Of a stretch of 64,000 bases of DNA, positions 7,153 to 40,926 are shown piece after piece (positions within the stretch are counted from its first letter, which is position 1; each line of letters opens with the position of its first letter). The stretch lies in contig NZ_JAUMYS010000002.1 in assembly GCF_030528505.1 (NCBI RefSeq), positions 1-64,000 on the forward strand, given 5' to 3'. This DNA is from Tannerella sp. Lineage in GTDB: Bacteria; Bacteroidota; Bacteroidia; Bacteroidales; Tannerellaceae. Below the pieces are notes generated by a model. It did no database searches and was not told the origin of the DNA. It saw only the letters and a list, made by a program, of their open reading frames with translations. The position numbers were made by a program, and so were the translations under genes.

Positions 7153-7164
7153 CTGTTTTTATGT

Positions 7165-8322
7165 TTAATTGTTAGATACTTGTTTATACTGGGCAGGATT
7201 GACCCAATCATCCATCTTTTGGTAAAGCAGATCGAACAGGGAGCGACGGGTAATCATAAAATGAGCACTGACGGTCATTCCTTTCTTTAATTTACCGGTT
7301 CGCCCGTTCTTCAGCTGCAGGTAGTCTCTGTCCATCCCGCACTTTACCTTATAGTACGAATTTCCTCCGCTATCGGTCATAAAGTCGGATGATATCTCGC
7401 GAACCGTTCCACTGACCGTGCCCCATTCGTTATAATTGAATGATTCGATTTGTACAATTACCGGCATACCTAAACTCAAGTAACCGATATTTCTTGGTGT
7501 CACATACACTTCGAAATACAGCGTAGAGTCCGGACTTATCACGGCAAGGGATTCTCCGGCCCGTATGCTGCTGCCGCGATAGATAGCGGAGAACTGATCT
7601 AATGTTCCGCTGACCGGACTTTTAACAAAATACATATCTTTATCTTTGATTTCTTGCTTTAGAGAAGTATACATTTCGTTATGCGAGTTGCGGAGTGCGT
7701 TTAAATTTGCTTGCCATGTACTCATTTGATTTTCTATGAGCGAGGCCAACTCGTTCTGTTGACTTTTGTAGCGATAGTAATACGTATCGTATTCTTCTTC
7801 GGCAATGACTTTCTTTTCAAACAAAGCTTTATTGCGGAGATATTCTTTTTCCGCCTGATCCAACGAGGTCTCTAATTCTTTCTTTCGTTTGATATAATAA
7901 TGGTATTCCTGTTTGCATACAGGGGATTGAAAAGAAGAAGGAGACACTCCTCTTGCCAAATAGGTCAGATCGCTTAGTTGTTCGGCATAATCGTTCAGGC
8001 GGTTCGATTGATATGCAATCTTATAATCCGAACTGTTTGTGCGGAATCGCAAAAGAATGTCGCCCTTTTTCACTTGTTCGCCCTCACGGACGTAGACCGA
8101 ATCGACTAATTCCGTTACAGGCGACTTGATCTCCGTTTTCTCCGCAACAGGCCGGATGATACCCAGTCCCTGTACCGATATATCCACATAAATAAACGGC
8201 AGAGAAACCAACGCCACCGTCACAGCCGCCAATACGACCCAGTAAATTTTTTGAGACGTTGTCGTATGCTTATAGATATACGTCTCAATACTATTCTCAA
8301 TAAACTCGTTCGATAACAACAT
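7165..8322 (-). CDS. HlyD-family periplasmic adaptor of the peptide exporter
   Basis: The ATG at 8322 gives 385 residues (MLLSNEFIENS). An in-frame TTG at 8367 lies further upstream but inside the promoter region, so the ATG was preferred. One membrane anchor (about 26-46) is followed by a lipoyl-like half-domain (about 65-90), a long coiled-coil hairpin (about 110-240) and a beta-barrel region. This is the membrane-fusion protein linking the ABC exporter to the TolC channel. It is the first gene of the operon and lies downstream of promoter C (8348-8403), so its expression should follow the GTTA regulon. Confidence 0.9.
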   Translation of the reverse strand: MLLSNEFIENSIETYIYKHTTTSQKIYWVVLAAVTVALVSLPFIYVDISVQGLGIIRPVAEKTEIKSPVTELVDSVYVREGEQVKKGDILLRFRTNSSDYKIAYQSNRLNDYAEQLSDLTYLARGVSPSSFQSPVCKQEYHYYIKRKKELETSLDQAEKEYLRNKALFEKKVIAEEEYDTYYYRYKSQQNELASLIENQMSTWQANLNALRNSHNEMYTSLKQEIKDKDMYFVKSPVSGTLDQFSAIYRGSSIRAGESLAVISPDSTLYFEVYVTPRNIGYLSLGMPVIVQIESFNYNEWGTVSGTVREISSDFMTDSGGNSYYKVKCGMDRDYLQLKNGRTGKLKKGMTVSAHFMITRRSLFDLLYQKMDDWVNPAQYKQVSNN

Positions 8323-8347
8323 AGCTTCTGTCTTTAAATTCTTGCGA

Positions 8348-8403
8348 CAAAAGTATACTACGAACAACTGAAGCTATGTTATCATCATGTTATTTTTACG
8401 TTA
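8348..8403 (-). promoter_or_regulatory. Promoter C: GTTA 11-bp repeats plus TAnnTTTG box, exporter operon
   Basis: On the minus strand a -7 box TACTTTTG lies at 8355-8348. Exactly 22 bp upstream begins a row of three GTTA (TAAC on the coding strand) at 8378, 8389 and 8400, spaced 11 bp. No TTTG -33 box is present; the repeats occupy that place, as expected for an activator-dependent promoter. The layout is the same as at 10123-10178 and 10391-10456. The box is 25 bp upstream of the HlyD start. Confidence 0.7.
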
Positions 8404-18591: not shown

Positions 18592-19188
18592 TCATTTTAT
18601 GAATGATTCTGCCCATTCCGGCAAATCAGTTATGTATTTTTTTAGTAAAACTCCATCTACCGTTCGATATAATAGTTTGGGCGGTTCATTTTCTACGGAA
18701 TTATCATATATATAAGCCCTGTCTACAATTGCTATCGCTACTGCTGCATTGATTAATGATTTGTAGTATCGAGTAATGATTTTTGATATGGGTACTTCAT
18801 GTCCTCCTGTTAAATAACGCTTTGCAACACGTTGAACATTGATTGTCGGATCTTGAGTGCAGATATAAAAGAAACGGATGAAGAAGCCTGCTTCTTTTGC
18901 CTTTTTTACAAATTCCAATTTCTCGTCTGAAGAAAAAACGGTTTCAAAAACAAAGTCACGCCCTTCACTCAGACACTTATACCGAAGGTCTGTGGCATCT
19001 TGCGCTGCTTTTATAATAGATTCGTGCGAATTCCAATCCCCATAAACTTCTTGGGCAATATTATCAGGATTGATATATAGACTTCCTTCCGACCATTCAT
19101 TCTTCAATAATTGGGTCGTTGTCGACGTTTTGCCAGCTCCATTGGGACCGGCAACAATGCAAAGAACCGGCCTTTTCAATTCAGTCAT
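18592..19188 (-). CDS. Zeta-toxin-like P-loop kinase
   Basis: A 198-residue P-loop protein. Walker A is AGPNGAGKTS (about residues 13-22). A Zeta-like NPDNIA follows at about 41 and ETVFSS at about 81-86, positions used for substrate binding in Zeta toxins. Zeta toxins phosphorylate UDP-N-acetylglucosamine, but many chromosomal relatives in Bacteroidetes have unproven roles. A 61-68-residue gene precedes it by 9 bp in the same operon, as in toxin-antitoxin pairs. Toxicity is inferred. Confidence 0.75.
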   Translation of the reverse strand: MTELKRPVLCIVAGPNGAGKTSTTTQLLKNEWSEGSLYINPDNIAQEVYGDWNSHESIIKAAQDATDLRYKCLSEGRDFVFETVFSSDEKLEFVKKAKEAGFFIRFFYICTQDPTINVQRVAKRYLTGGHEVPISKIITRYYKSLINAAVAIAIVDRAYIYDNSVENEPPKLLYRTVDGVLLKKYITDLPEWAESFIK

Positions 19189-20184: not shown

Positions 20185-21354
20185 ATGAGAAACAGAAAGC
20201 TACGTATGGGCATGATCGGAGGTGGAGCGAATGCATTTATTGGCGCCATCCACCGTTCTGCCGCTCTTATGGACAATGAGATTGAGCTGGTTTGCGGATG
20301 CTTCAGTCGCAATAAAGACATTTCGCACCAATCGGGACGTTCTCTTTACTTGCCGGACGACCGCATATACGGAAACTATCGCGAGATGATCACACAGGAG
20401 GCACTGCTTCCCGAAGGAGAACGGATGGATTTCGTCTCGATCGTTACACCAAACAAAGATCACTACGAACCGGCCGCTATGGCGCTTGACGCGGGATTCG
20501 ATGTCGTACTCGACAAACCGATGACGTTTTCGCTTGAGGAAGCCCGCTCTTTACAACAGAAGGTCGAAGAAACCGGACGCCTTCTCGCGTTGACACATAC
20601 ATACGCCGGTTATCCTGCCGTTAAGGAGGCTAAAGCGCGTATCGCGCGGGGAGACTTGGGAAAGATACGGCGTGTGTACGTGGAATATGTTCAGGGCTGG
20701 CTGACGGAACGTATCGAACTTCTGGGAAATAATAACGCCGTCTGGCGGACTGATCCGCAGCAGTCCGGTAAGGCCGGATGTATCGGCGACATTGGTACGC
20801 ATGCGTGGCATCTGAGCGAATATATCACCGGTCTGCGCGTAACCGAATTGTGTGCCGAGCTGAAAACATTTGCGACGGGACGACAGCTCGACGATGATGG
20901 TGCCGCTTTTCTGCATTATGACAACGGGGCTACGGGCGTTCTTATCGCGACACAGATCGCCGCCGGCGAAGAAAATAACATCACCGTACGGGTTTACGGC
21001 GAAAAAGGAGGCCTCGAATGGCGCCAGATGGAGCCCAATACGCTATACGCCAAATGGCCGGATCGACCGACGGAAGAAATACGCGTCGGGAACGGTTTTA
21101 CGGGACTAAGTGACGTTACCCGTTGGAATACGCGTACACCGGGCGGACATCCCGAAGGATATATCGAAGCTTTTGCGAATATTTACCGCAATTTCGCACG
21201 TACCCTTCGTGCACGTGCCGCAGGCGAAACACCGCAGCCAGAATGGTTGGACTTCCCGACCGTCTACGATGGACTGCGCGGTATGCAGTTTATCGAAACG
21301 ATGGTCACTTCAGCACGCAACAACGACCGCAAATGGCAACCGTGGATCGATTAA
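20185..21354 (+). CDS. Gfo/Idh/MocA-family oxidoreductase (cytoplasmic)
   Basis: A 389-residue protein. The Rossmann motif GMIGGGANAFIGAIHR lies near the N-terminus, the family's Lys-Pro motif is LDKPMT (about 112), and DIGTHAWH near residue 200 supplies a likely catalytic Asp/His. There is no signal peptide, so it should act in the cytoplasm with NAD(P), oxidising or reducing a sugar or sugar derivative. It starts the cluster with a cytochrome-SUMF1 fusion and two Tat-exported proteins, 34 bp ahead of the cytochrome gene. Confidence 0.88.
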   Translation: MRNRKLRMGMIGGGANAFIGAIHRSAALMDNEIELVCGCFSRNKDISHQSGRSLYLPDDRIYGNYREMITQEALLPEGERMDFVSIVTPNKDHYEPAAMALDAGFDVVLDKPMTFSLEEARSLQQKVEETGRLLALTHTYAGYPAVKEAKARIARGDLGKIRRVYVEYVQGWLTERIELLGNNNAVWRTDPQQSGKAGCIGDIGTHAWHLSEYITGLRVTELCAELKTFATGRQLDDDGAAFLHYDNGATGVLIATQIAAGEENNITVRVYGEKGGLEWRQMEPNTLYAKWPDRPTEEIRVGNGFTGLSDVTRWNTRTPGGHPEGYIEAFANIYRNFARTLRARAAGETPQPEWLDFPTVYDGLRGMQFIETMVTSARNNDRKWQPWID

Positions 21355-21388: not shown

Positions 21389-22948
21389 ATGAGAACGAGT
21401 TACCGGTCGAGAAGAGACGAAAAAAAGAAAAAGAAATGGCCCCTGTTTCTGTTCGGCTTTATCGTCGGCATGGCCTTTTTCATGTCCCTCTATGAAGTAT
21501 CCGTCTACTATTCGACGGACGAAGCCTGCATGAGTTGCCACGTCCATCCGCACGCGGAAGAAACATGGAAATTATCGTCGCACGTAAACAACGGGAGCGG
21601 CGTCACCGTTCATTGCGTCGACTGCCACTTGCCTCCGAAGAATCAGACATGGAATCATTATTCGGCCAAGATACAGCTTGGCGTACGCGATTTGTGGGGG
21701 TATCTGACCAAAGACTCGTTCGACTGGGAAATGAAGTCGCAGCTCGAACATGCCGTAAAATACATCCCGAACGAGTCGTGTAAAGAATGTCATAAGAATC
21801 TGTTTCCCGCAGGTATCACGGACGCGGGAATCACCGCGCACCTCTACTACGAAGAAAACGAGAAAAAACTGAATTTGCAATGTATCAGTTGCCACCTCAA
21901 CGCCGGACATTACAACCCGAACTACAAGCACGGACAGATGACCGGTATTCCGGGAGTCTCTGCCACGGCTTCAGGCCCGCCGTTCGATTCGGCAACGGTC
22001 GTGACTTCTTTCACCGATTTCACGGAACAGATTCCGGGCACTCCGGTCTCGTTCAAGATGATTGCCATCCCCGGTGGTACGTTCAAGATGGGCAGCCCCG
22101 ATAAAGAAGACTTCCGCCGGGACGATGAGTCGCCGGTGCGAAACGTGACCGTCAGCCCTTTCTTTATGGCCGAGGTCGAAGTCACTTGGGACCAATATTG
22201 GGCTTTTTACGCGGCTACGCTCAGCGAAGGACGCACGCCGCCCGAAACGATCTACGCCAACAATACCCGCGCGGACATCGACGTGGACGGCGTTTCCGGC
22301 CCGACACCGCCGTTCGGATTTCCGGATCAGGGCTGGGGAGGAGGTACGCGTCCGGCCATTACGATGACGCACTATGCTGCCGAGACGTTCTGCCAGTGGC
22401 TTTCCCTCAAGACCGGTAAGAAATATCGCCTGCCGACCGAAGCCGAATGGGAATACGCGGCTCGCGGAGGCACAAAAACGCCCTATTTCTTCGCAGGAAG
22501 ACCGAAAGATTATTCGGATGAAGGCATCATCCGTAAATTTATCAGCGCCAAAACCGAACCTATCGGCGAATTTATTATCTACGGCAAAAATGCGAAGAAC
22601 AAGACGCAGGAGCCCGACAAGGTTAAAGCGAACCCGTTCGGGCTGAAAAATATGCTCGGCAACGTGATGGAATACTGTGCCGACAAATACGACCCGCAGG
22701 CATATGCCAAAGGGGCTTCGACCGTTACCGATCCGTTGGTGACCGAAGGCGAAGAATGGGTGGTACGCGGCGGTAATTATACGAGCGATGCGGCCGATGT
22801 GCGCTGTGCCGCCCGCAGCCATACGCGCCACGACGACTGGCTGAAAACAGACCCGCAACAGCCCAAGAGCATCTGGTGGTATTCCGACATCCGGGGGATT
22901 GGTTTCCGTGTGGTTTGCGAGCCGGACTCGTCGTTGAAAGCGAAATAA
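21389..22948 (+). CDS. Tetraheme NapC/NrfH-like cytochrome c fused to an SUMF1 domain
   Basis: A 519-residue protein. It has a basic N-terminus, one membrane anchor (about 17-38), then four CxxCH heme sites: CMSCH (47-51), CVDCH (76-80), CKECH (131-135) and CISCH (165-169). This is the layout of small NapC/NirT quinol-oxidising cytochromes. Residues about 220-515 form an SUMF1/formylglycine-generating-type fold (IPGGTFKMGSPD, LPTEAEWEYAARGG, GNVMEYCAD, VVRGGNY, GIGFRVV). The Cys pair used for catalysis in true formylglycine-generating enzymes is absent. The fusion suggests electron transfer from quinol to, or from, a periplasmic partner. Role unknown. Confidence 0.88.
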   Translation: MRTSYRSRRDEKKKKKWPLFLFGFIVGMAFFMSLYEVSVYYSTDEACMSCHVHPHAEETWKLSSHVNNGSGVTVHCVDCHLPPKNQTWNHYSAKIQLGVRDLWGYLTKDSFDWEMKSQLEHAVKYIPNESCKECHKNLFPAGITDAGITAHLYYEENEKKLNLQCISCHLNAGHYNPNYKHGQMTGIPGVSATASGPPFDSATVVTSFTDFTEQIPGTPVSFKMIAIPGGTFKMGSPDKEDFRRDDESPVRNVTVSPFFMAEVEVTWDQYWAFYAATLSEGRTPPETIYANNTRADIDVDGVSGPTPPFGFPDQGWGGGTRPAITMTHYAAETFCQWLSLKTGKKYRLPTEAEWEYAARGGTKTPYFFAGRPKDYSDEGIIRKFISAKTEPIGEFIIYGKNAKNKTQEPDKVKANPFGLKNMLGNVMEYCADKYDPQAYAKGASTVTDPLVTEGEEWVVRGGNYTSDAADVRCAARSHTRHDDWLKTDPQQPKSIWWYSDIRGIGFRVVCEPDSSLKAK

Positions 22949-22987: not shown

Positions 22988-24385
22988 ATGACAAAAAAAA
23001 GCAGTATCAGTAGAAGGTCATTCCTCAAAAGCTCGGCCCTTGCGGGCGCAGCCGGAATGGTCGGTACGGGGGGAACTGCCACCCTGCTTTCCTCGTGTGG
23101 AGGAGGCGCAAGCAGTAACGAGAACGCGAATGCGGCCAACAAGCCGCTGAAAGAACCGGGAACATATTATGTGCCCGAATTGCCCGATATGGCGGCCGAC
23201 GGTAAAGAGTTGAAGGCCGGTATCATCGGATGTGGCGGACGCGGCAGCGGTGCAGCGATGAATTTCCTCGCCGCGGCGAACGGTGTAACGATTGTGGCGC
23301 TGGCCGACACGTTTCAGGACAGGGTCGACAGTCTGGCCCAGAAACTGAAAGACGAGAAGAATATCGACATTCCTGCCGATAAGCGCTTCGTCGGGTTAGA
23401 TGCCTACAAGCAGGTTATCGACAGCGATGTAGACGTGGTGATCGTTGCTACGCCGCCGAACTTTCGCCCGGCCCAATTCCAGTATGCGGTAGAAAAGAAT
23501 AAACATTGCTTCCTCGAAAAACCGATCTGCGTCGACGCGGTAGGTTACCGCACCATCATGGCTACGGCCAAGCAGGCGCAGGCCAAGAATCTATGCGTAA
23601 TCACCGGCACGCAGCGTCACCATCAGCGGAGTTATATCGCATCGTACCAGCAGATCATGAACGGTGCGATCGGCGAGATCACGGGCGGAACGGTCTATTG
23701 GAATCAGAACATGTTATGGTACCGGGAACGTCAGACTGGATGGAGCGACTGCGAATGGATGATTCGCGACTGGGTGAACTGGAAATGGCTCTCCGGCGAT
23801 CATATCGTCGAGCAGCATGTACATAACATCGACGTGTTTACATGGTTTTCGGGACTGAAACCGGTAAAAGCCGTCGGCTTCGGATCGCGTCAGCGCCGGA
23901 TCACGGGCGACCAGTACGATAATTTCAGCATCGACTTCACGATGGAGAACGGTATCCATCTGCACAGTATGTGCCGCCAGATAGACGGTTGCGCGAATAA
24001 CGTCAGCGAGTTTATTCAGGGAACGAAAGGTTCGTGGAACAGCGCGAACATGGAAATCAAAGACCTTGCCGGCAATGTGATCTGGAAGTATGATTTTGAC
24101 GCCGAAAAGGCATCGTTCAAACAGAACGACCCCTATACGCTCGAGCATGTGAACTGGATCAATACGATTCGCGCCGGCAAATCGATCGATCAGGCTTCGG
24201 AAACCGCCGTATCGAACATGGCCGCCATCATGGGACGCGAATCGGCTTACACGGGCGAAGAAACGACATGGGAAGCCATGACCGCCTCCGCACTCGACTA
24301 TATGCCGGCCGACCTGAATCTGGGCAACATGGATATGAAACCGTTCGTGGTACCCGTACCCGGTAAACCGTTAGAGAAAAAGTGA
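22988..24385 (+). CDS. Tat-exported Gfo/Idh/MocA-family oxidoreductase
   Basis: A 465-residue protein with a twin-arginine signal (SRRSFLK) and a lipobox-like SSCGGG near residue 37. It should be folded with bound NAD(P) and then exported and lipid-anchored. The Rossmann motif is AGIIGCGGRGSG, the Lys-Pro motif is LEKPICVDA, and HIVEQHVHNIDVF carries likely catalytic His residues. This is the Bacteroidetes group often found beside TIM-barrel sugar epimerases. Its stop overlaps the next start by 1 bp (TGATG). Confidence 0.88.
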   Translation: MTKKSSISRRSFLKSSALAGAAGMVGTGGTATLLSSCGGGASSNENANAANKPLKEPGTYYVPELPDMAADGKELKAGIIGCGGRGSGAAMNFLAAANGVTIVALADTFQDRVDSLAQKLKDEKNIDIPADKRFVGLDAYKQVIDSDVDVVIVATPPNFRPAQFQYAVEKNKHCFLEKPICVDAVGYRTIMATAKQAQAKNLCVITGTQRHHQRSYIASYQQIMNGAIGEITGGTVYWNQNMLWYRERQTGWSDCEWMIRDWVNWKWLSGDHIVEQHVHNIDVFTWFSGLKPVKAVGFGSRQRRITGDQYDNFSIDFTMENGIHLHSMCRQIDGCANNVSEFIQGTKGSWNSANMEIKDLAGNVIWKYDFDAEKASFKQNDPYTLEHVNWINTIRAGKSIDQASETAVSNMAAIMGRESAYTGEETTWEAMTASALDYMPADLNLGNMDMKPFVVPVPGKPLEKK

Positions 24386-25351: not shown

Positions 25352-26230
25352 ATGTCGTTAGTATATGCCAATATGAGAATGAGCGAGGTGGTGAGCGAGC
25401 ATCTCTCGCTCATTCCGGTTATCAACCGCTTCGGCATACGGCTGGGAGTGGGCGATGAAACCGTCATGGCGCTTTGCGAAGCAAACGAAATCGATACCGA
25501 CTTTTTCCTCACCATCGTCAACACGTTTATCAACGAAGACTATTTTCCGGAGAAAAAGCTGCAAAGCTTTCACCTCAATCAGATTATCGATTATCTGAAG
25601 CAAACGAACCGGTATTATCTGCAATACCAGTTGCCCAATATCGAGCGTCACCTGCAAATTTTTATTCATACGTCGGGCGGGAGCAATGCCTCGCTGCAAC
25701 TGTTGGGCAATATCTTCGCCTCGTTCAAAGAGAAATTATGCAGTCGTATTCAGACCGACGAACGAGAGTGGTTCCCGCGTTTGCTTTCGCTCGGCGAAAA
25801 AGAGCAAAACAGGAGGAGCATGCGCGCCCGGACATCGCCCGAGACGGATGAAATGATCGAAGCCATGATGGACGATATGCGGAACATCATGATCAAGCAT
25901 CTGACGGGAACGTACGACGAAAACCTTGGGTATGCCGTGCTGTTCACCATCGATGCTTTGGGACGCGACATCCGTCAGCACAACCGCATCCGCAGTCGAA
26001 TCCTGCTGCCGATGGTCGACGACAACGGCCATCTCTCGAACCGCGAGAAAGAAGTACTCAAGCTCATCGTCAGCGGATATACGAACAAGGAGATTGCCGC
26101 GCGCCTCTTCGTCAGCCTCAACACCATCCTGACACACCGCAAGAACATCACCGCCAAGCTCGGTATCAAGACGATTCCGGGACTTACGTTCTATGCCATC
26201 ACGCATAAAATCATCACCGAAGTCAAATAA
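25352..26230 (+). CDS. LuxR-type regulator with an N-terminal helical (RIC/ScdA-like) domain
   Basis: A 292-residue protein. The C-terminal 65 residues are a GerE/LuxR helix-turn-helix (LSNREKEVLKLIVSGYTNKEIAARLFVS, about 227-254). The N-terminal part starts MSEVVSEHLSLIPVINRFGI, the pattern of the ScdA/RIC N-terminal domain. A helical segment with His residues follows (NIERHLQIFIH, later RNIMIKHLTG), as in hemerythrin-like proteins. Such sensors could respond to redox state or NO through a di-iron site. It starts 28 bp after the TIM-barrel gene, so it may regulate the redox cluster. Confidence 0.75.
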   Translation: MSLVYANMRMSEVVSEHLSLIPVINRFGIRLGVGDETVMALCEANEIDTDFFLTIVNTFINEDYFPEKKLQSFHLNQIIDYLKQTNRYYLQYQLPNIERHLQIFIHTSGGSNASLQLLGNIFASFKEKLCSRIQTDEREWFPRLLSLGEKEQNRRSMRARTSPETDEMIEAMMDDMRNIMIKHLTGTYDENLGYAVLFTIDALGRDIRQHNRIRSRILLPMVDDNGHLSNREKEVLKLIVSGYTNKEIAARLFVSLNTILTHRKNITAKLGIKTIPGLTFYAITHKIITEVK

Positions 26231-27954: not shown

Positions 27955-28029
27955 ATATTTTGTACGTTTTCAACCTGAAATGGAGAATCGACTAAATAGA
28001 AACAATTGTATAACGAATCATTAAAAAAC

Positions 28030-31000
28030 ATGAGAAGAAAAAAACTTTTTGGAGCGAGAGGCTTGCTTACACTGTTGCTGTGTATCTCAGCGCTTTCGCT
28101 TTCGGCACAGACGATCACGGTGCGAGGTACCGTGACGGATGAGAGCCGTGAACCGGTTATCGGAGGAACAGTTATTGTAAAAGGACAACCTTCGAAAGGA
28201 ACGATTACAGACATTGACGGTAATTATGTATTAAATGACGTCCCGGCCGATGGGATATTGACCTTCAGTTATGTGGGACTCCAATCGCAGGATGTCCGTG
28301 TGAATGCACGTACGACGATTGATGTCTTGATGCAAAGCGATACGAAACATCTGGACGAAGTCGTGGTCATTGGTTTCGGAACGCAGAAGAAAGTCAATTT
28401 GACAGGGGCTGTATCTACCGTTGATACGAAAGAATTGGCATCACGTCCTGTAGCTAACGTCAGCCAGGCATTGCAGGGTGTTGTTCCGGGTTTAAACATT
28501 TCCGTCCCTATTGGAGGAGGAGAATTGGATAATGCCCTTAAAATAAACATTAGAGGCTCCGGGTCCATTGGCGATGGAAGTGAAGCAAAACCTTTGGTGT
28601 TAATTGATGGCATGGAAGGTAATATTAATGCACTCAACCCGCAAGACATCGAAAGTATCTCGGTGCTGAAAGATGCGGCTTCGTCTGTTGTATATGGTTC
28701 TCGTGCTCCCTTTGGTGTGATTCTTATCACAACGAAAAGTGGGAAAGAAGGGCGTACAAGGATCAACTACAACAATAACTTCCGTTTCTCGGACCCCATT
28801 CGTATGCCCAAGATGATGGACTCTTATTCGTTTGCCGAATATTTTAATAGCGCATCTGAAAATGGCGGAGGAACCCCGATTTTTACCGATGAAGTTATAG
28901 ATCGTATCAAAGCTTATCAGGCTGGAACACTAACCAAACCCTTTGTTCCTTCAAAAGATGGGGCTACATGGGATATGTATTCGAATGCAAATGGGAATAA
29001 TGACTGGTTTGCCGAACATTATCGCTCTTGGGCTCCGTCGCAAGAACATAATCTGAGTGTTAGTGGAGGGAACCAAAAGATTAATTATATCCTGAGCGCG
29101 AACCTTATGGATCAAAGAGGACTGTTGCGTCATTCGAACGATAAGCTGAAACGTTATTCTATAACAGCAAAAATAAACTCTCAATTATCGCAATATATTC
29201 AGTTGGGGTATACTGCCCGTTGGGTACGTACAGATTATGATAAAGCCTACTACCAGAATGCATTGCTGTTTCACAACATTGCACGCCGTTGGCCGACAAT
29301 GAATGCAAAAGATGAAAACGGCCATTATATTGAGCATTCCGAAATTATTCAACAACGCGAAGGCGGTCGTGATAATATGGTTAAGGACTTCTTAACACAT
29401 CAATTCTCTATGGTGGTTGAACCAATAAAGAACTGGAAAATCACAGCCGAGGCAAATATGCGTACGGAAAATATGGAACGTAAGTATGCCGTTTTACCTA
29501 TATTTTTCTATGGTACAAAAAATAATCCCATACCAATGAAATTCGACGAAGGACATGGCCCGGGCATTACCGAATATGGCAAACAAGTAGACCGTCGAGA
29601 TTTCTATACAACGAACATTTTTACCGACTATTTCTTTGAAACGGATAAAGGACATTTCTTTAAAGCAATGGCCGGATTCAATATGGAATTAAACAAATAC
29701 AGTTCGCTCTATGGCACCAAACAAGGACTGATAACAGGTACATTGCCTTCCCTGTCCACCGCTACACAAAACATGAAAACAGGAGGTATCGACAATAATG
29801 AATTAAGCGATTGGGCTACTGCTGGCTTCTTTGGGCGCTTGAACTACAATTATAAGGAACGCTATCTGTTAGAGTTTAACTTGCGTTATGACGGCTCGTC
29901 ACGCTTCCTAAGAGACCAGCGCTGGATCTTATTGCCTGCCTTTTCAGCAGGATGGAATATTGCCAGAGAAGACTTTTGGAAAGATTATATGGATCAGCTG
30001 AGTACATTGAAACTAAGAGGATCATGGGGTGAATTAGGAAATCAAAATACAACAAATCTTTATCCTTTTTATCCGTCACTCACGATTAAAACAGAAGGTT
30101 CAAATTGGCTAATCAATAATAAAAAACCTAATACGGTAGAAATGCCCGGTTTGGTAAGTACATTCCTCACATGGGAAAGAATTCGTTCGTGGAATGTCGG
30201 ATTGGATTTTGCAGCTTTAAATAATCGGCTTACCGGTTCATTCGACTGGTTTAATCGTACCACACTTGACATGGTAGGCCCAGCCCCGCTATTACCTTAT
30301 ATTCTCGGAACGGATGTGCCGAAAATGAATAATGCTGATATGAGATCATACGGATTTGAGCTTGAGATCGGATGGAGAGACCGTATAAGGGATTTTGCAT
30401 ATGGTGTAAAAGCCGTACTGTCCGATGCCCAGCAGGAAATCATGCGCTATCCGAACGATACAAAGAAAATAGATACTTGGTATGAAGGCAAAAAGGTTGG
30501 AGAAATCTGGGGATATACTACTGTCGGTATTGCCAAAACACAGGCAGAAATGGACGCCCATCTGTCATCCATGTCGAAAGACAAACAAAATGCGTTAGGC
30601 GGCAACTGGGCAGCAGGAGATATCATGTATGCCGATCTAAATGGAGATGGCTCGGTGAATGGAGGAGCCGGTATACTCGGTGATACAGGAGACAGAACGA
30701 TCATCGGCAACTCTACACCGCGCTATAATATCGGGATAAATATGGATATGCAATGGAAGAATTTTGATTTCAGTATGTTCTGGCAAGGAGTGATGAAACG
30801 GGATGTAGAAGTCGGTGGACCGTATTTTTGGGGGGCCAGTGGCGGACAATGGCAATCGGCCGGTTTCACGGAGCACTGGGACTTCTTCCGTCCCGAAGGA
30901 CATCGCTTAGGTGCGAATTTGAATGCTTACTATCCACGTCCTATCTTCAACACCCATGCTGGAAGGAATCAACATACACAGACACGCTATTTGCAGAATG

Positions 31001-31269
31001 GTGCATATCTCCGATTAAAAAACATTCAATTAGGTTATACCTTGACGGATCGTTGCGCTTTAATGAAAAATATAGGCGTTGAATCTGTTCGTTTCTACGT
31101 ATCAGCCGACAATATACTCACTTTTACAAAGCTGACTAAAATATTCGATCCAGAAACAGTAGAAGGCCGGACATGGTGGGATACCAGTCGGCCGTCTGAA
31201 TTGGGAAATAACGGTAAAATTTATCCGTTGTCAAAAGTTATTTCTTTTGGTTTTAACGTTAATTTCTAA
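28030..31269 (+). CDS. SusC/RagA-family TonB-dependent transporter
   Basis: The ATG at 28030 (MRRKKLFGARGLL) gives 1079 residues and a proper signal peptide (ALSLSAQ); an earlier in-frame start would lengthen the basic region. Domains: CarboxypepD_reg-like (about 28-105), plug with LDEVVVIGFGTQKK (the SusC TonB-box-type region) and VYGSRAPFGVILITTK, and a large barrel ending FGFNVNF. It imports a glycan or other oligomer across the outer membrane with the SusD-like lipoprotein 35 bp downstream. The pair has no adjacent enzymes, so the substrate cannot be guessed. The coding sequence is visibly more AT-rich than its neighbours. Confidence 0.93.
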   Translation: MRRKKLFGARGLLTLLLCISALSLSAQTITVRGTVTDESREPVIGGTVIVKGQPSKGTITDIDGNYVLNDVPADGILTFSYVGLQSQDVRVNARTTIDVLMQSDTKHLDEVVVIGFGTQKKVNLTGAVSTVDTKELASRPVANVSQALQGVVPGLNISVPIGGGELDNALKINIRGSGSIGDGSEAKPLVLIDGMEGNINALNPQDIESISVLKDAASSVVYGSRAPFGVILITTKSGKEGRTRINYNNNFRFSDPIRMPKMMDSYSFAEYFNSASENGGGTPIFTDEVIDRIKAYQAGTLTKPFVPSKDGATWDMYSNANGNNDWFAEHYRSWAPSQEHNLSVSGGNQKINYILSANLMDQRGLLRHSNDKLKRYSITAKINSQLSQYIQLGYTARWVRTDYDKAYYQNALLFHNIARRWPTMNAKDENGHYIEHSEIIQQREGGRDNMVKDFLTHQFSMVVEPIKNWKITAEANMRTENMERKYAVLPIFFYGTKNNPIPMKFDEGHGPGITEYGKQVDRRDFYTTNIFTDYFFETDKGHFFKAMAGFNMELNKYSSLYGTKQGLITGTLPSLSTATQNMKTGGIDNNELSDWATAGFFGRLNYNYKERYLLEFNLRYDGSSRFLRDQRWILLPAFSAGWNIAREDFWKDYMDQLSTLKLRGSWGELGNQNTTNLYPFYPSLTIKTEGSNWLINNKKPNTVEMPGLVSTFLTWERIRSWNVGLDFAALNNRLTGSFDWFNRTTLDMVGPAPLLPYILGTDVPKMNNADMRSYGFELEIGWRDRIRDFAYGVKAVLSDAQQEIMRYPNDTKKIDTWYEGKKVGEIWGYTTVGIAKTQAEMDAHLSSMSKDKQNALGGNWAAGDIMYADLNGDGSVNGGAGILGDTGDRTIIGNSTPRYNIGINMDMQWKNFDFSMFWQGVMKRDVEVGGPYFWGASGGQWQSAGFTEHWDFFRPEGHRLGANLNAYYPRPIFNTHAGRNQHTQTRYLQNGAYLRLKNIQLGYTLTDRCALMKNIGVESVRFYVSADNILTFTKLTKIFDPETVEGRTWWDTSRPSELGNNGKIYPLSKVISFGFNVNF

Positions 31270-31304
31270 TCACATTCCCGTTTAACATTAAAAATGAAAA
31301 TCAT

Positions 31305-33311
31305 ATGAGAATTTTAAAGAATTGCAAATTTTATGCTTTTGTCTTTCTATTGGTAACATGCTTCGGATGTAACGATTTTCTGGATCGTGAGCCTTTAGAT
31401 AAAATAACGGATCAGTATTATTTTAATTCTGCATCGGACTTAGAAGCGTATGTGATCAACCTATATGATGAATTCCCTAACATTCGTGACCAATGGAATT
31501 TAGGGCCAGCTATTACTGGAGACGATCATTCGGACAATCAGGCAAAGACAAATGCTGAGCAAAAATATTGGGTCATAGACTTCTGGAAAGTACCAGAAAA
31601 TGAAAATCGTAACAATAGTGAAAAAGAATGGAATTTTTTCAGCATCCGTAAATTGAACTATTTTTTTGAACATGTGTTGCCTAAAAAAGAAGCAAAACAG
31701 CTTACAGGAGATGAATCCGAAGTAAATCATTATATTGGAGAGGCTTATTTTCTGAGGGCATATGTCTATTTTAAACGCCTAAAAAATTTCGGAGATTTTC
31801 CGATTGTTACAAAAGTATTAGAAGACAAGAAGGAATATCTTGTAGCAATGAGTAAACGAAGCCCGAGAAACGAGGTTGCCCGTTTTATATTAAAAGATTT
31901 GGATGAGGCCATCAATCTACTATCGGATAATCCTCCGGGGAGCAAAAACAGGATCACCCGAAATGCCGCATTATTGTTTAAATCGCGTGTTGCCCTTTTT
32001 GAAGCGACTTTTGAAACGTATCATAAAGGGACACCTCGTATTCCTGGCTCTCCAGCATGGCCGGGCGCGACAAAAGATTATCACAAAGGATATACCGTTG
32101 ATATTGAAAAGGAAATATCCTTCTTTATCGATGAAGCCTTAAAAGCATCTAAAGAGGTGGCAGATAAGATTACTCTGACCCCGAATAACAAAGTATTGAA
32201 TCCTGTTTTCGGGCAGAAGACAGGGTGGAATCCTTACTTCGAAATGTTTGCGCAGGATGATCTGTCTGGCGTTAGTGAGGTGATTATGTGGCGTCAATTC
32301 AATAATGCATTGAGTAACACTCATCGGACAAGTACTTATATTTTTTCCGGAGGAAATCTTGGTTTCACTCGCAATTATATTGAGACATTTCTGATGGAAA
32401 ACGGATTACCGATATACGCAAATGGATCAGGATATACTGGTGATGCCACAATCGAACAGACTTTGCATAATCGTGATTATCGTATGCAGCTTTTTGTAGT
32501 GGCCGAAAATACGCGTAGGGATGTGATGATAAAAGATGACTCACCATTGGCTTATTTTGGTTTGCCGTATATTTTGGAAAAAGCCGAAAACAGAATACCT
32601 ACAGGGTATCATGTGCGTAAAGGTCTTACATATGAAGCCAGTAGTACAGCAGGCGGCCATCAACAACAAACAACAGGGTTTATTGTTTTCAGAGGTGTTG
32701 AAGCATATCTGAATTATATCGAAGCATCTTGCTTAAAAAATAATGGCTTGAGTATTGACGGAACAGCTCAGCAGTATTGGAAGGCAATACGCGAACGAGC
32801 AGGGATAGATTCCGATTTTAATAAAACAATAGCTGCAACCGATTTAGATAAAGAAAAAGACTGGGCTGTGTACTCAGGAGAAAATAAGGTGTCAAGTCTC
32901 ATGTATAATATTCGTCGCGAGAGACGCTGTGAATTTATCGCAGAGGGGATGAGATGGGATGACTTGAAAAGATGGCGTGCTTTGGATATGGTAAAGAACT
33001 ACATCATTGAAGGATTTAATCTCTGGGATGAGCAAGCAGCTAAATACAAGAGCATAATAGAACCGGGCACAGCAGGTAAAACTCCAAATGTATCGGCAAA
33101 GTCTGCTTCGAAATATATACGTCCTTATCAGATTATAAAAGAGAATAATAATCTTTATAATGGTTATACTTGGTCTAAGGCAAACTATCTGCTCCCTATA
33201 CGAATAGAGAATATTCGCATTACAGCAGCAAATCCGTCGGACTTATCTACATCTCCAATTTATCAAAATCCTTATTGGCCTCTTGAACCAAACAAAGGAG
33301 CCTTGGAATAA
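31305..33311 (+). CDS. SusD/RagB-family surface glycan-binding lipoprotein
   Basis: A 668-residue lipoprotein (lipobox CFGC, Cys22) starting CNDFLDREPLDKITDQYYF, typical of SusD. The TPR-rich helical core includes EAYFLRAYVYFKRLKNFGDFPIVT and the C-terminal SusD motif RRERRCEFIAEGMRWDDLKRW. It sits on the cell surface as the lid of the SusC barrel. It is longer than most SusD proteins (about 500-600). It ends at a terminator shared with the convergent GH144 gene. Confidence 0.93.
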   Translation: MRILKNCKFYAFVFLLVTCFGCNDFLDREPLDKITDQYYFNSASDLEAYVINLYDEFPNIRDQWNLGPAITGDDHSDNQAKTNAEQKYWVIDFWKVPENENRNNSEKEWNFFSIRKLNYFFEHVLPKKEAKQLTGDESEVNHYIGEAYFLRAYVYFKRLKNFGDFPIVTKVLEDKKEYLVAMSKRSPRNEVARFILKDLDEAINLLSDNPPGSKNRITRNAALLFKSRVALFEATFETYHKGTPRIPGSPAWPGATKDYHKGYTVDIEKEISFFIDEALKASKEVADKITLTPNNKVLNPVFGQKTGWNPYFEMFAQDDLSGVSEVIMWRQFNNALSNTHRTSTYIFSGGNLGFTRNYIETFLMENGLPIYANGSGYTGDATIEQTLHNRDYRMQLFVVAENTRRDVMIKDDSPLAYFGLPYILEKAENRIPTGYHVRKGLTYEASSTAGGHQQQTTGFIVFRGVEAYLNYIEASCLKNNGLSIDGTAQQYWKAIRERAGIDSDFNKTIAATDLDKEKDWAVYSGENKVSSLMYNIRRERRCEFIAEGMRWDDLKRWRALDMVKNYIIEGFNLWDEQAAKYKSIIEPGTAGKTPNVSAKSASKYIRPYQIIKENNNLYNGYTWSKANYLLPIRIENIRITAANPSDLSTSPIYQNPYWPLEPNKGALE

Positions 33312-33329
33312 GTGAGAATTTTGTACGAA

Positions 33330-33365
33330 AAAAAGAGGGTGTGCTAAACGGCATTCCCTCTTTTT
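33330..33365. terminator. Bidirectional terminator between convergent operons
   Basis: AAAAAGAGGG (33330-33339) pairs with CCCTCTTTTT (33356-33365). A-tract and T-tract lie on both sides, so it can serve the SusD gene on the plus strand and the GH144 gene on the minus strand. Confidence 0.75.
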
Positions 33366-33389
33366 CTTTACAAAAAAATCAATAAGCTA

Positions 33390-34733
33390 CTATTCAAAAC
33401 CCAACTTCTTCAATCCCTCGCGTATTTCGGGAGCGTTCATAAATAAACGCCAGAGTAATCCCGTACGATGATTTTCAATCATCGGGGCGATCGTCAACTG
33501 GTCGATAGCCAAATAGCGCTTCGGATACCAGCCATGACCGATGCTGAATGCATCGTAAAAACCATATGTCCCCCAGATGCTGTCGCCAAGGACAAAGTAG
33601 AAATGGCGCAGAGCCTTCATCGATTCGTCGGGAGTGTAAGGAAAGCTCGACAACGCCGCCGTAGGCGTGATGACGCCCGGATCATTCTGCATCGGTCTGT
33701 GCGCCGTGTAGCCGTCGACCGTGTAGCTGGCCGTCAGTCCCCAGCAGTTCTCGCCGTATCCTTTATGCCCTTGCGGGTTCTGGACACAGTAGGCATAATT
33801 GATCAGCGCCTGATTACGGTTCACCTCGCCATAGTCTGCATACGCGTCTTTCAGCCCCATCGGGCTCAAGCCGATGTAAGAATAATGTGCCCAGAAGAGA
33901 GGCCCTCCGTAGCCTTCGGCACCGTTATGCTTCACCCGCAACGGCAGCCCGTAAGCGACAGCCTCGCTGCGAATACCGCCGCTACGTGCCCATCCGTTAT
34001 GGTAGGCCGAAGCCGAAATGGGATGCGTGGGCGACGAAGCCGCAAGAATATACGTGATCAAACATTCGTTATACCCTTCGAGCGGGAAGTTCATTTGCCA
34101 TTCGTATGTAGGACTCCAGTGCCAGTACAACACATCCTTTCCGTTCAGATACCAGTCCCACTCCATCCCACGCCAAAGAGTATCGATCTTTTGCGCCAGC
34201 GCACGTTCCGAAGCGTTTCCTTCCTTGAAATATTCGCGAACGCACAGGAGTCCCTGCATCAGGAAGGCACTTTCGACGAGGTCGCCCCCATCATCTTTCG
34301 TACTGAACGGTTTTACCTTGCCGGTCTTGCCGTGTATCCAATGCGGCCAGACTCCGTGAAACCGGTCGGCACGCGCCAGATAATCGACAATACGATGAAG
34401 TCGGCTCACGCACGTATCGCGCGGAATAAATCCCCGCTCAACGGCTACCAGCAGTCCGGCGAGTCCGAAGCCGCTTCCGCCCGTGGTCACCACGTCGGCA
34501 TCGTTTTGCGGATAGACTCCGTCCATGTGGATACGTTCCGGAGCCAAACCTGATGTCGGCTCGGCACCGTCCCACATATAATTCAAGTGCGTTCGCTGAA
34601 TGTAATCGAGGAACGCGTCGTCGTCGGCAAAGGTCAGCAGACGTTGCTCAGCCGGGGGCGTCTCTTTCTGCGGCTTTTTATCGCATCCGGCTGTCAGGCA
34701 AAGACACAGAAAGGTTGCGGCGATCGCTCTCAT
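33390..34733 (-). CDS. GH144-type (Glycoamylase Pfam) beta-1,2-glucanase lipoprotein
   Basis: The ATG at 34733 gives 447 residues with a lipobox (LTAGC, Cys17). The following domain has the PF10091 pattern (TTGGSGFGLAGLLVAVERGF, DLVESAFLMQGLLCVREYF, FPLEGYNECLITYILAASSPTHPI). It continues with WAHYSYIGLSPMGLKDAYADYG, NCWGLTASYTVDGYTAH and the end YLAIDQLTIAPMIENHRTGLLW. Members of this group were placed in GH144, with endo- and exo-acting beta-1,2-glucan enzymes known, including one from Parabacteroides. Its start overlaps the esterase stop by 4 bp. Substrate is inferred from family. Confidence 0.8.
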   Translation of the reverse strand: MRAIAATFLCLCLTAGCDKKPQKETPPAEQRLLTFADDDAFLDYIQRTHLNYMWDGAEPTSGLAPERIHMDGVYPQNDADVVTTGGSGFGLAGLLVAVERGFIPRDTCVSRLHRIVDYLARADRFHGVWPHWIHGKTGKVKPFSTKDDGGDLVESAFLMQGLLCVREYFKEGNASERALAQKIDTLWRGMEWDWYLNGKDVLYWHWSPTYEWQMNFPLEGYNECLITYILAASSPTHPISASAYHNGWARSGGIRSEAVAYGLPLRVKHNGAEGYGGPLFWAHYSYIGLSPMGLKDAYADYGEVNRNQALINYAYCVQNPQGHKGYGENCWGLTASYTVDGYTAHRPMQNDPGVITPTAALSSFPYTPDESMKALRHFYFVLGDSIWGTYGFYDAFSIGHGWYPKRYLAIDQLTIAPMIENHRTGLLWRLFMNAPEIREGLKKLGFE

Positions 34734-35536
34734 AAGCCTCCTCCGTCCGGTTTTCGTTGTCCGAACAGCCACGAGAGATAATCGGGCTGCCTGAACGCCG
34801 GGTACCAACTGCCATGATCAACGCCCGGAAACTCGAAATATTCTACCTCGATGCCGGCCTTCTTCATCGTCAGATACGCTTCGCGCGAAAACTCTACAGG
34901 TACGACCGAGTCGGAATCACCGTGGTAGATGCGGAACTTCGTCGGTGTAACCAGCTGTTCAAGCCGTCCGGTATGCACACCTCCGCAGATGGGGATCGCG
35001 GCAGCAAAGAGATCGGGGTAACGGCAGACAAGGTCGAACGTGCCCATGCCGCCCATCGACAGTCCCATCACATAAACACGACGGGGATCAATGGGGTATT
35101 CCGCCATCGTCCGGTCAAGCAACTCCTTTACCAATGCAAGCGGTCGTGAGATTTCCGCATCGGCCGGAAACGGATTGCCGTCTTTGAAACCGTTGGGGCG
35201 TAGCGGCGTAGGCCAGTAACGATCTTCCGGACATTGCGGGAACAACACGAAGGCGGGGTATTGTGTTCGGTAAACGGGATTGGTAAAAAGCATGCCTCCG
35301 TGAAATAGTTGTTTCTCGTTGTCCGAGCCACGTTCACCCGCACCGTGCAGAAACAGTACCAACGGATACGTCTTGCCTTCGGCTACGTTTTCAGGTTTCA
35401 GACTGCGATAGAGCAGCGAGTCGCCACTCTTCGATACATACACGTCGCTCTCATACTGAGGAAATTTCTTCTGAGCGAAAATCCACTGCATGCCGCAAAC
35501 ACAGCATAACAGCAGGATGCAGATTCGTTGTTTCAT
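34730..35536 (-). CDS. Secreted alpha/beta-hydrolase, esterase type
   Basis: A 268-residue protein with a signal peptide (to IFAQ, about residue 21). The esterase fold has oxyanion segment LVLFLHGAGERG, nucleophile Ser in GLSMGGMGT, Asp in YHGDSDSVVP and His in GVDHGSW. Such carboxylesterase/PHB-depolymerase-like proteins in polysaccharide loci often remove acyl groups from glycans. It lies between the LamG lipoprotein (8-bp gap) and GH144 (4-bp overlap), so a de-esterifying step before hydrolysis is plausible. Confidence 0.85.
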   Translation of the reverse strand: MKQRICILLLCCVCGMQWIFAQKKFPQYESDVYVSKSGDSLLYRSLKPENVAEGKTYPLVLFLHGAGERGSDNEKQLFHGGMLFTNPVYRTQYPAFVLFPQCPEDRYWPTPLRPNGFKDGNPFPADAEISRPLALVKELLDRTMAEYPIDPRRVYVMGLSMGGMGTFDLVCRYPDLFAAAIPICGGVHTGRLEQLVTPTKFRIYHGDSDSVVPVEFSREAYLTMKKAGIEVEYFEFPGVDHGSWYPAFRQPDYLSWLFGQRKPDGGGL

Positions 35537-35544
35537 ATCATGCG

Positions 35545-36336
35545 TTATTTATTCATGAACTGTTTGATTTCGGCACTACTCAACGCTTTGTTGTAAATGC
35601 GTAGCTCGTCGATGAGGCTGTGATCCGAGAGGTGATTCCACTCGTTGAAGCGCGGTGAGCCCGAACCGATAGATATCAGGTCACAACCGTTCCAACTGAT
35701 GCGGGTCAGGTTTGCGGCTGCCACTTCTTCACCGTCGAGGTAAAGGAAAGCCTTCCCCTCGGTCAGCACCAGCGCCACGTACTTCCATCCGCTCGCCTCC
35801 GGATCGAGGTCGGCTTTTGCACCACCGTCCAGCCAGCTGTCGGCTGTTCCGTTTCCTACATTGGCCTTGATGCGCTGCTTGACACCGGCTTTCTCACGGA
35901 AGATGCGGAAGCCGGCTGTACGGTTATTCTGCTTGTCGGCGGGCTTACCTTCCGTCTTGGGACCCAGCACGAGCAGACCGGCACGGTCGGACACAGGATT
36001 GAGCTTGTACCAGAATGCGAACGTCATCGCGGAGCCTAACGGTGCGGCCAGATTGGCTACGTCGAATGTGAGATAGCTGTCTTTCGCTCCGGCATAAGCC
36101 TTGCCTCTTTTTCCGTTGGCCAGCGTGGGCGCCCCTGTCGGCGAAGCCTCAAAAAGACTTTGGTATTCCTCGAAATCCTTGTCGAACGACAGGTAGAATA
36201 TCTGTCCGTCGGCGCCGAGCGGAGGAGGTGTAGGCTGCTGCGGATAGTCGAACGGCGGGTCTTGTCCCAAGTCTTGAAAACACGACGTCAGCAACAAACC
36301 GGCTAACGCGATTGCAATATAAATTGTCCTTTTCAT
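35545..36336 (-). CDS. LamG/concanavalin A-like lectin-domain lipoprotein
   Basis: A 263-residue lipoprotein (lipobox LLTSC, Cys19) with a Pro-rich linker and one LamG_3-like jelly-roll domain (about 45-263). Motifs are FYLSFDKDF, MTFAFWYKLNP, WKYVALVLTEGKAFLYLDGEEVA and DELRIYNKALSSAEIKQF. It takes the place of the SusE/SGBP surface glycan-binding protein, directly behind SusD (19 bp). Ligand unknown, probably the same glycan as handled by the adjacent SusC/SusD and glucanase. Confidence 0.8.
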   Translation of the reverse strand: MKRTIYIAIALAGLLLTSCFQDLGQDPPFDYPQQPTPPPLGADGQIFYLSFDKDFEEYQSLFEASPTGAPTLANGKRGKAYAGAKDSYLTFDVANLAAPLGSAMTFAFWYKLNPVSDRAGLLVLGPKTEGKPADKQNNRTAGFRIFREKAGVKQRIKANVGNGTADSWLDGGAKADLDPEASGWKYVALVLTEGKAFLYLDGEEVAAANLTRISWNGCDLISIGSGSPRFNEWNHLSDHSLIDELRIYNKALSSAEIKQFMNK

Positions 36337-36355
36337 GATGTTTGTTTTTTATCGG

Positions 36356-37897: not shown

Positions 37898-37908
37898 AAT
37901 CGATGTAT

Positions 37909-40900: not shown

Positions 40901-40926
40901 AAAACAAGTAGCGATTTACATTTCAT
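37909..40926 (-). CDS. SusC-family TonB-dependent transporter
   Basis: The ATG at 40926 (MKCKSLLVFSFLL) gives 1005 residues and a normal signal peptide (LWLFAQ). The CarboxypepD_reg-like domain (about 20-95), plug (LDEVVVIGYGSAKKRDLTG, IFGVRGANGVIIVNTK) and barrel (ending FGFNVTF) are complete. It is the first gene of the five-gene locus (SusC, SusD, LamG, esterase, GH144), so it should import the released oligosaccharides. No local regulator (ECF, HTCS or SusR) was seen beside it. Confidence 0.93.
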   Translation of the reverse strand: MKCKSLLVFSFLLMPLWLFAQQQITVSGVVTEQATGEPAIGVSILVKGTTNGTVSGLDGSYTLSDVPAQATLVFSYIGMTTVEQAVNGRSRIDVMMSEDQQVLDEVVVIGYGSAKKRDLTGSIVSIKAAEFADRPSTNPLASIQGKLAGVQVVNAGHAGQDPEIRIRGTNSINGYAPLYVVDGLFSDNINYLNPADIESMEVLKDPSSLAIFGVRGANGVIIVNTKRAKSGQTVVNVNSSLGFRSVADRMSMTNAAQFRELYDEQRVNQGLGAYDYAKWNADTDWQDVIFQQGFMTNHNVSITGSSEKNRFYLGLGYTSEEGNILHEKYSKVTANLNSDYQVTDYLRFGFQVNGSRTWPSDAKGVSGAIRAAPIAPVYHEKTGLLHTLPDFQRAQVWNPMIDVETRAGHSVGVNNRVAGNIYGEVDILKNLKFKTTFSLDYAVGEERSFSPIIYVYNPDVAGKENLTDRESVSQNKSTRTVAQSDYILTYDVSSGGHSLTAMAGLTTNYTEFSLLGAGREQHLNDIIFSIPDDDKDKWWISSIDAKASSNRGAQHRRFTMSYLLRALYSYQNKYLLNASYRRDGASVFRSVGNTWENFYSLGAGWVVSEEAFMKNQSMIDYLKLKGSWGVLGSQNTGGFHYPTYPRLENSGSAVFGDNIIAGYSLRYLPRNLSWEKTHAWESGLEVALFGNRLRIEPVYYNKVTKDIIVLLSGFSGAKNSLENLGEIRNRGLELSVSWSDKIGESGLKYTLSGNLTTIDNQVLSLGRGPEDAIFEGPKGISRSMEGYPVAHFYGYQVIGVYQNKEDVKRYFPNKVGSPAPGDLKFKDVNGDGVITQDDRTMIGNPTPDLTYGFNVNLEYRNFDLGVDMMGVYGNEIYRTWDDPTYAQLNYLTSRMNRWHGEGTSNWEPVLNPSRALNLLNSNYFIEDGSFFRIRNVQLGYKLNPALLSKLHLKSLRLYANVQNLKTWRRNTGYTPEMKGSALESSIDRGTYPMPVIYTFGFNVTF

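Follow-up and report, generated by a model that had tools for sequence, protein, structure and literature searches.

What is the function of a quinone-type tetraheme cytochrome that carries, on the same polypeptide, a domain of the SUMF1 fold? The question is raised by a gene of Tannerella sp. (Bacteroidales, Tannerellaceae; NCBI RefSeq assembly GCF_030528505.1), located in the first 64,000 nucleotides of contig NZ_JAUMYS010000002.1, a stretch called here the window. Its product, called here the fusion, has from N- to C-terminus a membrane anchor, four CxxCH hemes of the NapC/NrfH family and a SUMF1 fold. The next gene encodes GFO2, an oxidoreductase of the Gfo/Idh/MocA superfamily with a twin-arginine translocation (Tat) signal. 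The single chain, the heme motifs, the anchor, the loss of the cysteine pair of formylglycine-generating enzyme (FGE) and the steady pairing with GFO2 are all seen in the sequence. In the reading that we prefer, with a probability of about 0.5, the SUMF1 domain would dock GFO2, and electrons from periplasmic sugar oxidation would reach menaquinone via the hemes.

The fusion is encoded by a single open reading frame with an ATG start. Pfam assigns residues 13-178 to Cytochrom_NNT (E 1.1e-26, 94.1 bits; cut-off 24.1) and residues 223-480 to FGE-sulfatase (E 3.9e-40, 138.6 bits; cut-off 23.3). All four CxxCH motifs are invariant in an alignment of 46 rows, consisting of the window protein and 45 relatives that are 50-77% identical to it. 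In the AlphaFold model (mean pLDDT 76), a long N-terminal helix spans residues 4-40, the heme part is poorly resolved, and the SUMF1 part is mostly well resolved, except for residues 279-310 (pLDDT below 50). Comparison with the copy of T. forsythia ATCC 43037 (L033, 96% identical) reveals 15, 10, and 145 differences at codon positions 1, 2, and 3, respectively, with 136 synonymous and 21 non-synonymous codons; the 41-codon linker alone has 2, 2, and 17. Because the differences, linker included, are mostly at third codon positions, the fusion is taken to be one translated protein, and both halves are, by this codon pattern, translated and kept as one chain. Two separate proteins, or a frame error, are excluded by these statistics together with full-length frames in related genomes.

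The fusion is widespread in related bacteria. A record under the name T. forsythia OH1426_COT-023 (L032) has a copy 98% identical to the window protein. Relatives are encoded by 471 stretches of GTDB contigs; the best 80 of these (L032-L111, 70-98% identity, here the named loci) come from records labeled Tannerella, Parabacteroides, Dysgonomonas, Massilibacteroides, Petrimonas, and Proteiniphilum, among others. Both halves are matched in 50 of the 393 order genomes. The match has one internal stop codon in three of the 50 (G280, G319, and G238); as read in L185, the G280 copy is an unbroken 524-aa frame. Beyond the 50, G370 and G154 have just a piece of the fusion, cut by a contig end, and the two matches of the NrfH part alone (G233:C171 and G154:C47) stop at a contig edge. 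Within the phylum, 39 of 395 genomes match at E <= 1e-35, including three with fused copies (the source genome G000, G105, and G735, the last outside the class) and 36 with the SUMF1 part only, in frames of 317-440 aa. A quick tree built from SUMF1 domains, 45 of them fused and 19 stand-alone, requires one change of state (support 100), therefore one fusion event suffices. The preliminary description of this locus, made from the window alone, had placed a NapC/NrfH-like module with four CxxCH and a SUMF1 domain in one chain. The Pfam domains, the motifs and the codon comparison bear this out, and the two outcomes that would have spoken against it, a fusion confined to this assembly and separate translation of two proteins, did not hold.

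GFO2 is the constant partner of the fusion. It scores 48 bits with GFO_IDH_MocA (cut-off 24) and 25.4 bits with TAT_signal (cut-off 22.7) in Pfam, and R9 is invariant in the GFO2 alignment. By these signatures it is a member of the Gfo/Idh/MocA superfamily with a Tat signal, and is predicted to be exported. Of the 79 named loci with room, 76 have it on the same strand within 400 nt downstream of the fusion, the median gap being 36 nt; the gene lists of the three uncounted loci (L038, L060, and L099) show a GFO2 frame just downstream of the fusion as well. The same distance is kept in 15 of 18 more distant fused loci (L170-L187), and GFO2 adjoins the fusion also in L170 and L180. Among the order genomes, 52 of 393 have GFO2 at E <= 1e-60, namely 50/50 with the full fusion vs. 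2/343 others (Fisher value 2e-61, which ignores kinship and linkage and is given for scale only). The two are G370, where the fusion is cut at a contig end, and G160; no GFO2 match was found in G154, which has the NrfH part at a contig end. Stand-alone SUMF1 loci were fetched for 19 of the 36 phylum genomes that have them. A GFO2 relative (36-39% identity) is a co-directional neighbor of SUMF1 in 14 of the 19, and one of 40% identity is divergent from it in L167. The SUMF1-GFO2 pair thus exists without cytochrome in other classes, therefore the fused cytochrome was either added to the pair or lost from it. Taken as a prediction from gene order and co-occurrence, the partnership between the fusion and GFO2 is well supported.

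The type of reaction carried out by GFO2 is less constrained. Matches of its model (pLDDT 88.8) include DgpA1 (Z 34.4), levoglucosan dehydrogenase (34.2), the oxidoreductive sulfoquinovosidases 8qc2 and 8qc5 (both 34.1), and, slightly below, GFOR 1h6d (32.7); the fold alone cannot pick the function because these score so close. Assignment as a BT_2158-type glycoside 3-dehydrogenase was rejected (35.2 bits; NCBIfam NF058561 cut-off 750). GH109-named structures were absent from the listed GFO2 sequence matches and from the 50 fold entries shown, which does not exclude a likeness to GH109.

The SUMF1 half has the fold of FGE without its active site, which in FGE is a cysteine pair. The segment of the fusion at this position reads RGGNYTSDAADVR, and is 3 residues shorter than in the aligned FGE chains. 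Cys is absent from the nine positions after RGG in 128/128 fused rows, and 2/19 stand-alone rows have one Cys there. Some genes recur among the fused rows because they were drawn from two collections, which leaves 114 distinct sequences over the C-terminal 150 residues; L018 was omitted from the residue counts, and the same gene as read in L170 has four CxxCH. Judged from these residues the fusion is not a sulfatase activator, a function rejected on account of the missing cysteines. The nearest solved fold is PvdO, a dihydropyoverdine dehydrogenase (5hha_A; Z 28.8, root-mean-square deviation 2.3, 241 residues aligned), and FGE structures rank behind it (Z about 24-25). Profile and fold agree with FGE, and the cysteine pair does not. 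Although PvdO is nearest, the domain reaches only 93.4 bits with the PvdO model (NCBIfam NF051459, cut-off 500), and it was likewise rejected as GldK/PorK, the ring lipoprotein of the type IX secretion system (95.6 bits; TIGR03525 cut-off 350). PvdO and FGE share the SUMF1 fold with the fusion, which differs from them in having hemes attached, in a C-terminal DPQxPxSxW stretch present in all 147 rows (128 fused and 19 stand-alone), in lacking the FGE cysteine pair, and in lying far under the PvdO cut-off.

The cytochrome half has the marks of the NapC/NirT family, with Cytochrom_NNT above cut-off, four CxxCH motifs, and an N-terminal helix in the model. Residues K94 and D101, invariant in the 46-row alignment, align with a Lys and an Asp of D. 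vulgaris NrfH that we take to be K82 and D89 of its quinol site. The N-terminal membrane helix, the four CxxCH, Cytochrom_NNT, and the aligned quinone-site Lys and Asp are shared with NrfH, NapC, and CymA. Unlike these proteins, the fusion is joined to SUMF1, has CxxCHxH at heme 1 (128/128 fused rows) where D. vulgaris NrfH has CxxCHxM, and stays below the cut-off for a strict NrfH (69 bits vs. 134.2, NCBIfam TIGR03153), an assignment that was rejected. A role for the heme-1 Met ligand of NrfH and for a distal Asp is given in PMC8840924. Because the SUMF1 half fills the list of fold matches shown for the whole fusion model, that list contains no NrfH-like chain; the kinship to NrfH rests on sequence profiles, not on fold matches. 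The fusion is the sole NapC/NrfH-type (Cytochrom_NNT) protein found in the source genome (91.6% complete, 113 contigs). Unlike in NrfH systems, no NrfA was found there (no Cytochrom_C552 match), and a role in nitrite ammonification was rejected on this ground. Full-length NrfA is present in 8 of 20 fusion genomes examined, and a CcsBA-type heme-c synthase is matched in 20/20, in G359 just as a 266-aa CcsA-like frame.

On the gene neighborhood, the preliminary description stated that the fusion lies between sugar oxidoreductases and not sulfatases, and this is what is found: GFO1, a second Gfo/Idh/MocA protein, is upstream, GFO2 is downstream, followed by the TIM-barrel protein TIM, and none of the three is a sulfatase by Pfam. 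The link to sugar oxidoreductases is stronger than could be seen from the window, given the counts for GFO2 above. Its proposal of electron transfer or docking instead of sulfatase activation stands in the negative part. The positive part is consistent with the data because of the four conserved hemes, the membrane anchor, the NrfH quinone-site residues, and the stand-alone SUMF1-GFO2 pairs.

The following mechanism may be proposed. The fusion would be a membrane-anchored, quinone-type tetraheme cytochrome, and its periplasmic SUMF1 domain a dedicated docking domain for GFO2. GFO2 would be exported folded via Tat with a presumed nicotinamide cofactor, and outside the cytoplasm would oxidize its substrate, a sugar or glycoside, most likely at C3. 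TIM, where present, may isomerize or cleave the 3-keto product. Electrons from GFO2 would cross the SUMF1 interface and travel along the four hemes to menaquinone; sugar oxidation would in this way feed the anaerobic respiratory chain. Counted in support are the domains and conserved hemes, the quinone-site residues, the heme-c synthase, the pairing with GFO2, the fold matches of GFO2, the nearest relatives of TIM, and the context of sugar oxidation in related loci. This context includes genes for a GMC oxidoreductase and gluconate-2-dehydrogenase subunit 3 in the SUMF1-GFO2 context of L155 (Pfam), relatives of both in L158 (by similarity), 3-keto-disaccharide hydrolase (DUF1080) domains in fused loci L166 and L170 (Pfam), and, in L163, a Tll0287-like protein bearing a single CxxCH. 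A GMC gene is also near in L150.

Several points weigh against this mechanism. Transfer of nicotinamide hydride to heme is expected to require a flavin or quinone step, and no flavin domain was found in the fusion or GFO2 by Pfam; hydride-to-heme transfer is thus the weak step. A gene for the flavin transferase ApbE is near stand-alone SUMF1 in 5 of 19 loci (L150, L152, L156, L164, and L165; Pfam for three), including two where it stands beside GFO2 (L150 and L165), and a relative occurs in 4/80 named loci. However, a scan of the five stand-alone loci for [ST]GA[ST] gave no consistent or convincing flavinylation target (one match each in the Rossmann glycine loop of a GFO2, in ApbE itself, and in a SusC fragment), and covalent flavin on SUMF1 or GFO2 was rejected for these loci. 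Characterized NapC/NrfH proteins usually oxidize quinol, i.e., work in the opposite direction. Several relatives of GFO2 at an equal or almost equal fold score, the NAD-dependent glycosidases and GFOR, recycle their cofactor internally and need no outside acceptor. Pairing has exceptions too: in G160, the 14 kb surrounding GFO2 were read and showed no SUMF1 or NrfH gene, and four of the 19 stand-alone SUMF1 loci (L149, L151, L152, and L153) have no adjacent GFO2 relative. Co-occurrence alone is no proof of contact, since linked genes are gained and lost together. Finally, the other members of the cluster are inconstant. GFO1 lies within 6 kb upstream of the fusion in 30/54 named loci with room and in 1/16 distant fused loci, and TIM within 2.6 kb downstream in 70/71 and 4/17 (L170-L187), respectively.

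Electrons might flow in reverse, a doubtful alternative that nevertheless has arguments of its own. The cytochrome would then oxidize menaquinol and deliver electrons to SUMF1 or GFO2, reducing a periplasmic keto-sugar or another acceptor. The NrfH quinone-site residues kept in the fusion would serve this direction too; CymA oxidizes quinol, and ImoA, proposed as a quinone reducer, is described in PMC9600427 as having also oxidized quinol in vivo. The GMC dehydrogenase with its small subunit and the 3-keto-disaccharide hydrolase near SUMF1-GFO2 pairs point instead to sugar oxidation, and most of the closest fold matches of GFO2 are sugar dehydrogenases. It is rather unlikely that GFO2 is redox-neutral with internal NAD recycling, leaving the cytochrome only to reset reduced enzyme that has reached a dead end, or to serve another partner in the regulon. 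The fold scores of sulfoquinovosidases 8qc2 and 8qc5, level with the best matches of GFO2, and the close score of GFOR favor such an enzyme, whereas the fusion and GFO2 form a constant core around which GFO1 and TIM vary, and a mere helper would not be expected in 50/50 genomes.

The remaining alternatives concern the SUMF1 domain itself. As the fold is lectin-like and is shared by variable binding proteins and the PorK ring protein, the domain could be a sugar-binding or scaffold element holding substrate or partners near the membrane, with hemes serving an unlinked partner. This we consider improbable, the domain core being strongly conserved, with a long list of invariant residues, and pairing with GFO2 also where no cytochrome is attached. 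A true FGE, supplied by the cytochrome with electrons for sulfatase maturation, is hardly credible: it has the Pfam score and the FGE-like fold in its favor, and against it the cysteine pair missing from every fused row and the neighbors GFO1, GFO2, and TIM, which are not sulfatases. The preferred docking of GFO2 can also be put in a wider form, which is speculative and on balance unlikely. The system would be a new respiratory dehydrogenase in which an exported nicotinamide enzyme is coupled directly to menaquinone via SUMF1. The SUMF1 domain, with or without its own cofactor, would take over from flavin the two-to-one electron conversion, and the fused cytochrome would be one of several outlets (FAD dehydrogenase, ApbE-linked, monoheme c) for the SUMF1-GFO2 pair.

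Table 1. Features of the fusion gene and its cluster, in window coordinates.
Feature	Position	Strand	Evidence
Fusion protein, 519 aa: anchor, tetraheme NapC/NrfH module, SUMF1 domain	21389..22948	+	Open reading frame, Pfam, alignment, codon comparison
Cytochrom_NNT (NapC/NrfH) module, residues 13-178, with N-terminal helix	21425..21922	+	Pfam; same span in genome search (G000:C12:21425-21922)
Heme motif 1, CMSCH, residues 47-51, followed by V52-H53	21527..21541	+	Alignment
Heme motif 2, CVDCH, residues 76-80	21614..21628	+	Sequence, alignment
Heme motif 3, CKECH, residues 131-135	21779..21793	+	Sequence, alignment
Heme motif 4, CISCH, residues 165-169	21881..21895	+	Sequence, alignment
SUMF1 / FGE-sulfatase-fold domain, residues 223-480	22055..22828	+	Pfam; closest solved fold PvdO
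TDPQQPKSIWW, C-terminal motif of this SUMF1 subtype, residues 487-497	22847..22879	+	Conserved motif
GFO2, Tat-signal Gfo/Idh/MocA oxidoreductase with lipobox-like Cys	22988..24385	+	Pfam TAT_signal and GFO_IDH_MocA, sequence, adjacency, co-occurrence, fold
GFO1, Gfo/Idh/MocA oxidoreductase, upstream member of the cluster	20185..21354	+	Pfam GFO_IDH_MocA_C3 E 5e-26; best PDB 3v5n E 1e-101
TIM, Tat-signal xylose-isomerase-like TIM barrel, overlapping the GFO2 stop codon	24382..25323	+	Pfam AP_endonuc_2 E 2e-27
LuxR-type regulator beside the operon	25352..26230	+	GerE E 3e-17

The other genes of the cluster are listed in Table 1. GFO1 has no Tat signal by Pfam, and that of TIM is at threshold (22.8 bits; cut-off 22.7). 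TIM is closest to PDB 3kws ("putative sugar isomerase," E 8.5e-134), followed by 6wn6 ("3-keto-D-glucoside 4-epimerase," E 1.8e-20), which we take to be YcjR of E. coli. YcjR acts on 3-keto-D-glucoside (PMC11543891). CcsBA follows TIM in 6/80 named loci (Pfam for the L082 copy). The LuxR-type regulator has relatives in 54/80 named loci, often two in tandem directly after TIM, and its N-terminal 160 residues have a weak likeness to the model of RIC, a di-iron repair protein (40 bits; cut-off 204.7). It is possibly a redox or nitric oxide sensor for the operon. In Parabacteroides loci such as L042, L045, L050, and L051, a gene for a GH2 beta-galactosidase (~1032 aa) stands between GFO1 and the fusion, a cluster seen in about 15-16/80 named loci (Pfam for the L042 copy), which hints at beta-galactosides as substrates. 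A xylose-isomerase-like TIM barrel and a 3-keto-disaccharide hydrolase form one protein in L166 (5584-7065, +), two genes upstream of the fused gene. L174 and L180, DUF1080 neighbors by BLAST, were rejected as such, as Pfam shows the TIM barrel only.

Comparable reactions are known from other pathways. The E. coli Ycj and the levoglucosan (Lgd) pathways employ the same enzyme-family pair, Gfo/Idh/MocA and PF01261, for making and converting 3-keto-sugars, and their enzymes are located in the cytosol. Unlike in these NAD-linked pathways, GFO2 and TIM bear Tat signals, and a quinone-type cytochrome adjoins them. The composition of the levoglucosan route from Gfo/Idh/MocA and PF01261 enzymes is reported in PMC10066097, and beta-elimination of 3-keto-glycosides by AtOGE, a TIM-barrel enzyme, in PMC10628242. 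LacABC and DUF1080 have been tied to periplasmic use of 3-keto-glycosides, with membrane-linked oxidation of glycosides at C3 (PMC9007349), and GMC with small subunit, or DUF1080, is found in some fusion-related loci. A GMC reference was matched in 0/98 fusion loci (limited flanks). Unlike LacABC, the fusion loci have a Tat-signal, nicotinamide-type Gfo/Idh/MocA protein as candidate dehydrogenase and the tetraheme fusion as candidate acceptor.

No printed account of a cytochrome-SUMF1 fusion was found in a literature search, most subscription papers being outside its reach, and a search for NrfH together with SUMF1 gave nothing. The main text of a flavinylation survey (PMC8238504) has no mention of formylglycine, SUMF1, Gfo, sulfatase, NapC, or Bacteroid. 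The component families are known, and new are the joined architecture, the change of heme-1 ligand, and the steady pairing with an enzyme that is like sugar dehydrogenases and predicted to be exported.

Elsewhere in the window, two SusC/SusD-type pairs, glucoamylase-like, GH29 alpha-L-fucosidase, and GH2 genes occupy 28006-40962, 49214-51268, and 57423-60119; these are glycan-use loci around the fusion. Genes for an outer membrane efflux protein, a peptidase-C39 ABC transporter, and an HlyD-type protein, as in bacteriocin or peptide export, are at 3689-8367 (-), and a zeta-toxin-type kinase (Pfam E 2.6e-13) at 18592-19188 (-).

If the preferred reading is true, gut and oral Bacteroidales (Parabacteroides, Tannerella, Dysgonomonas, and others) would have an undescribed entry of electrons from periplasmic sugar oxidation into anaerobic respiration. 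The SUMF1 fold would gain a role beyond sulfatase activation, thiol-histidine chemistry, and secretion scaffolds. The fusion and GFO2 make a concrete, testable partner pair, and would provide a candidate answer to how exported Gfo/Idh/MocA enzymes dispose of their electrons.

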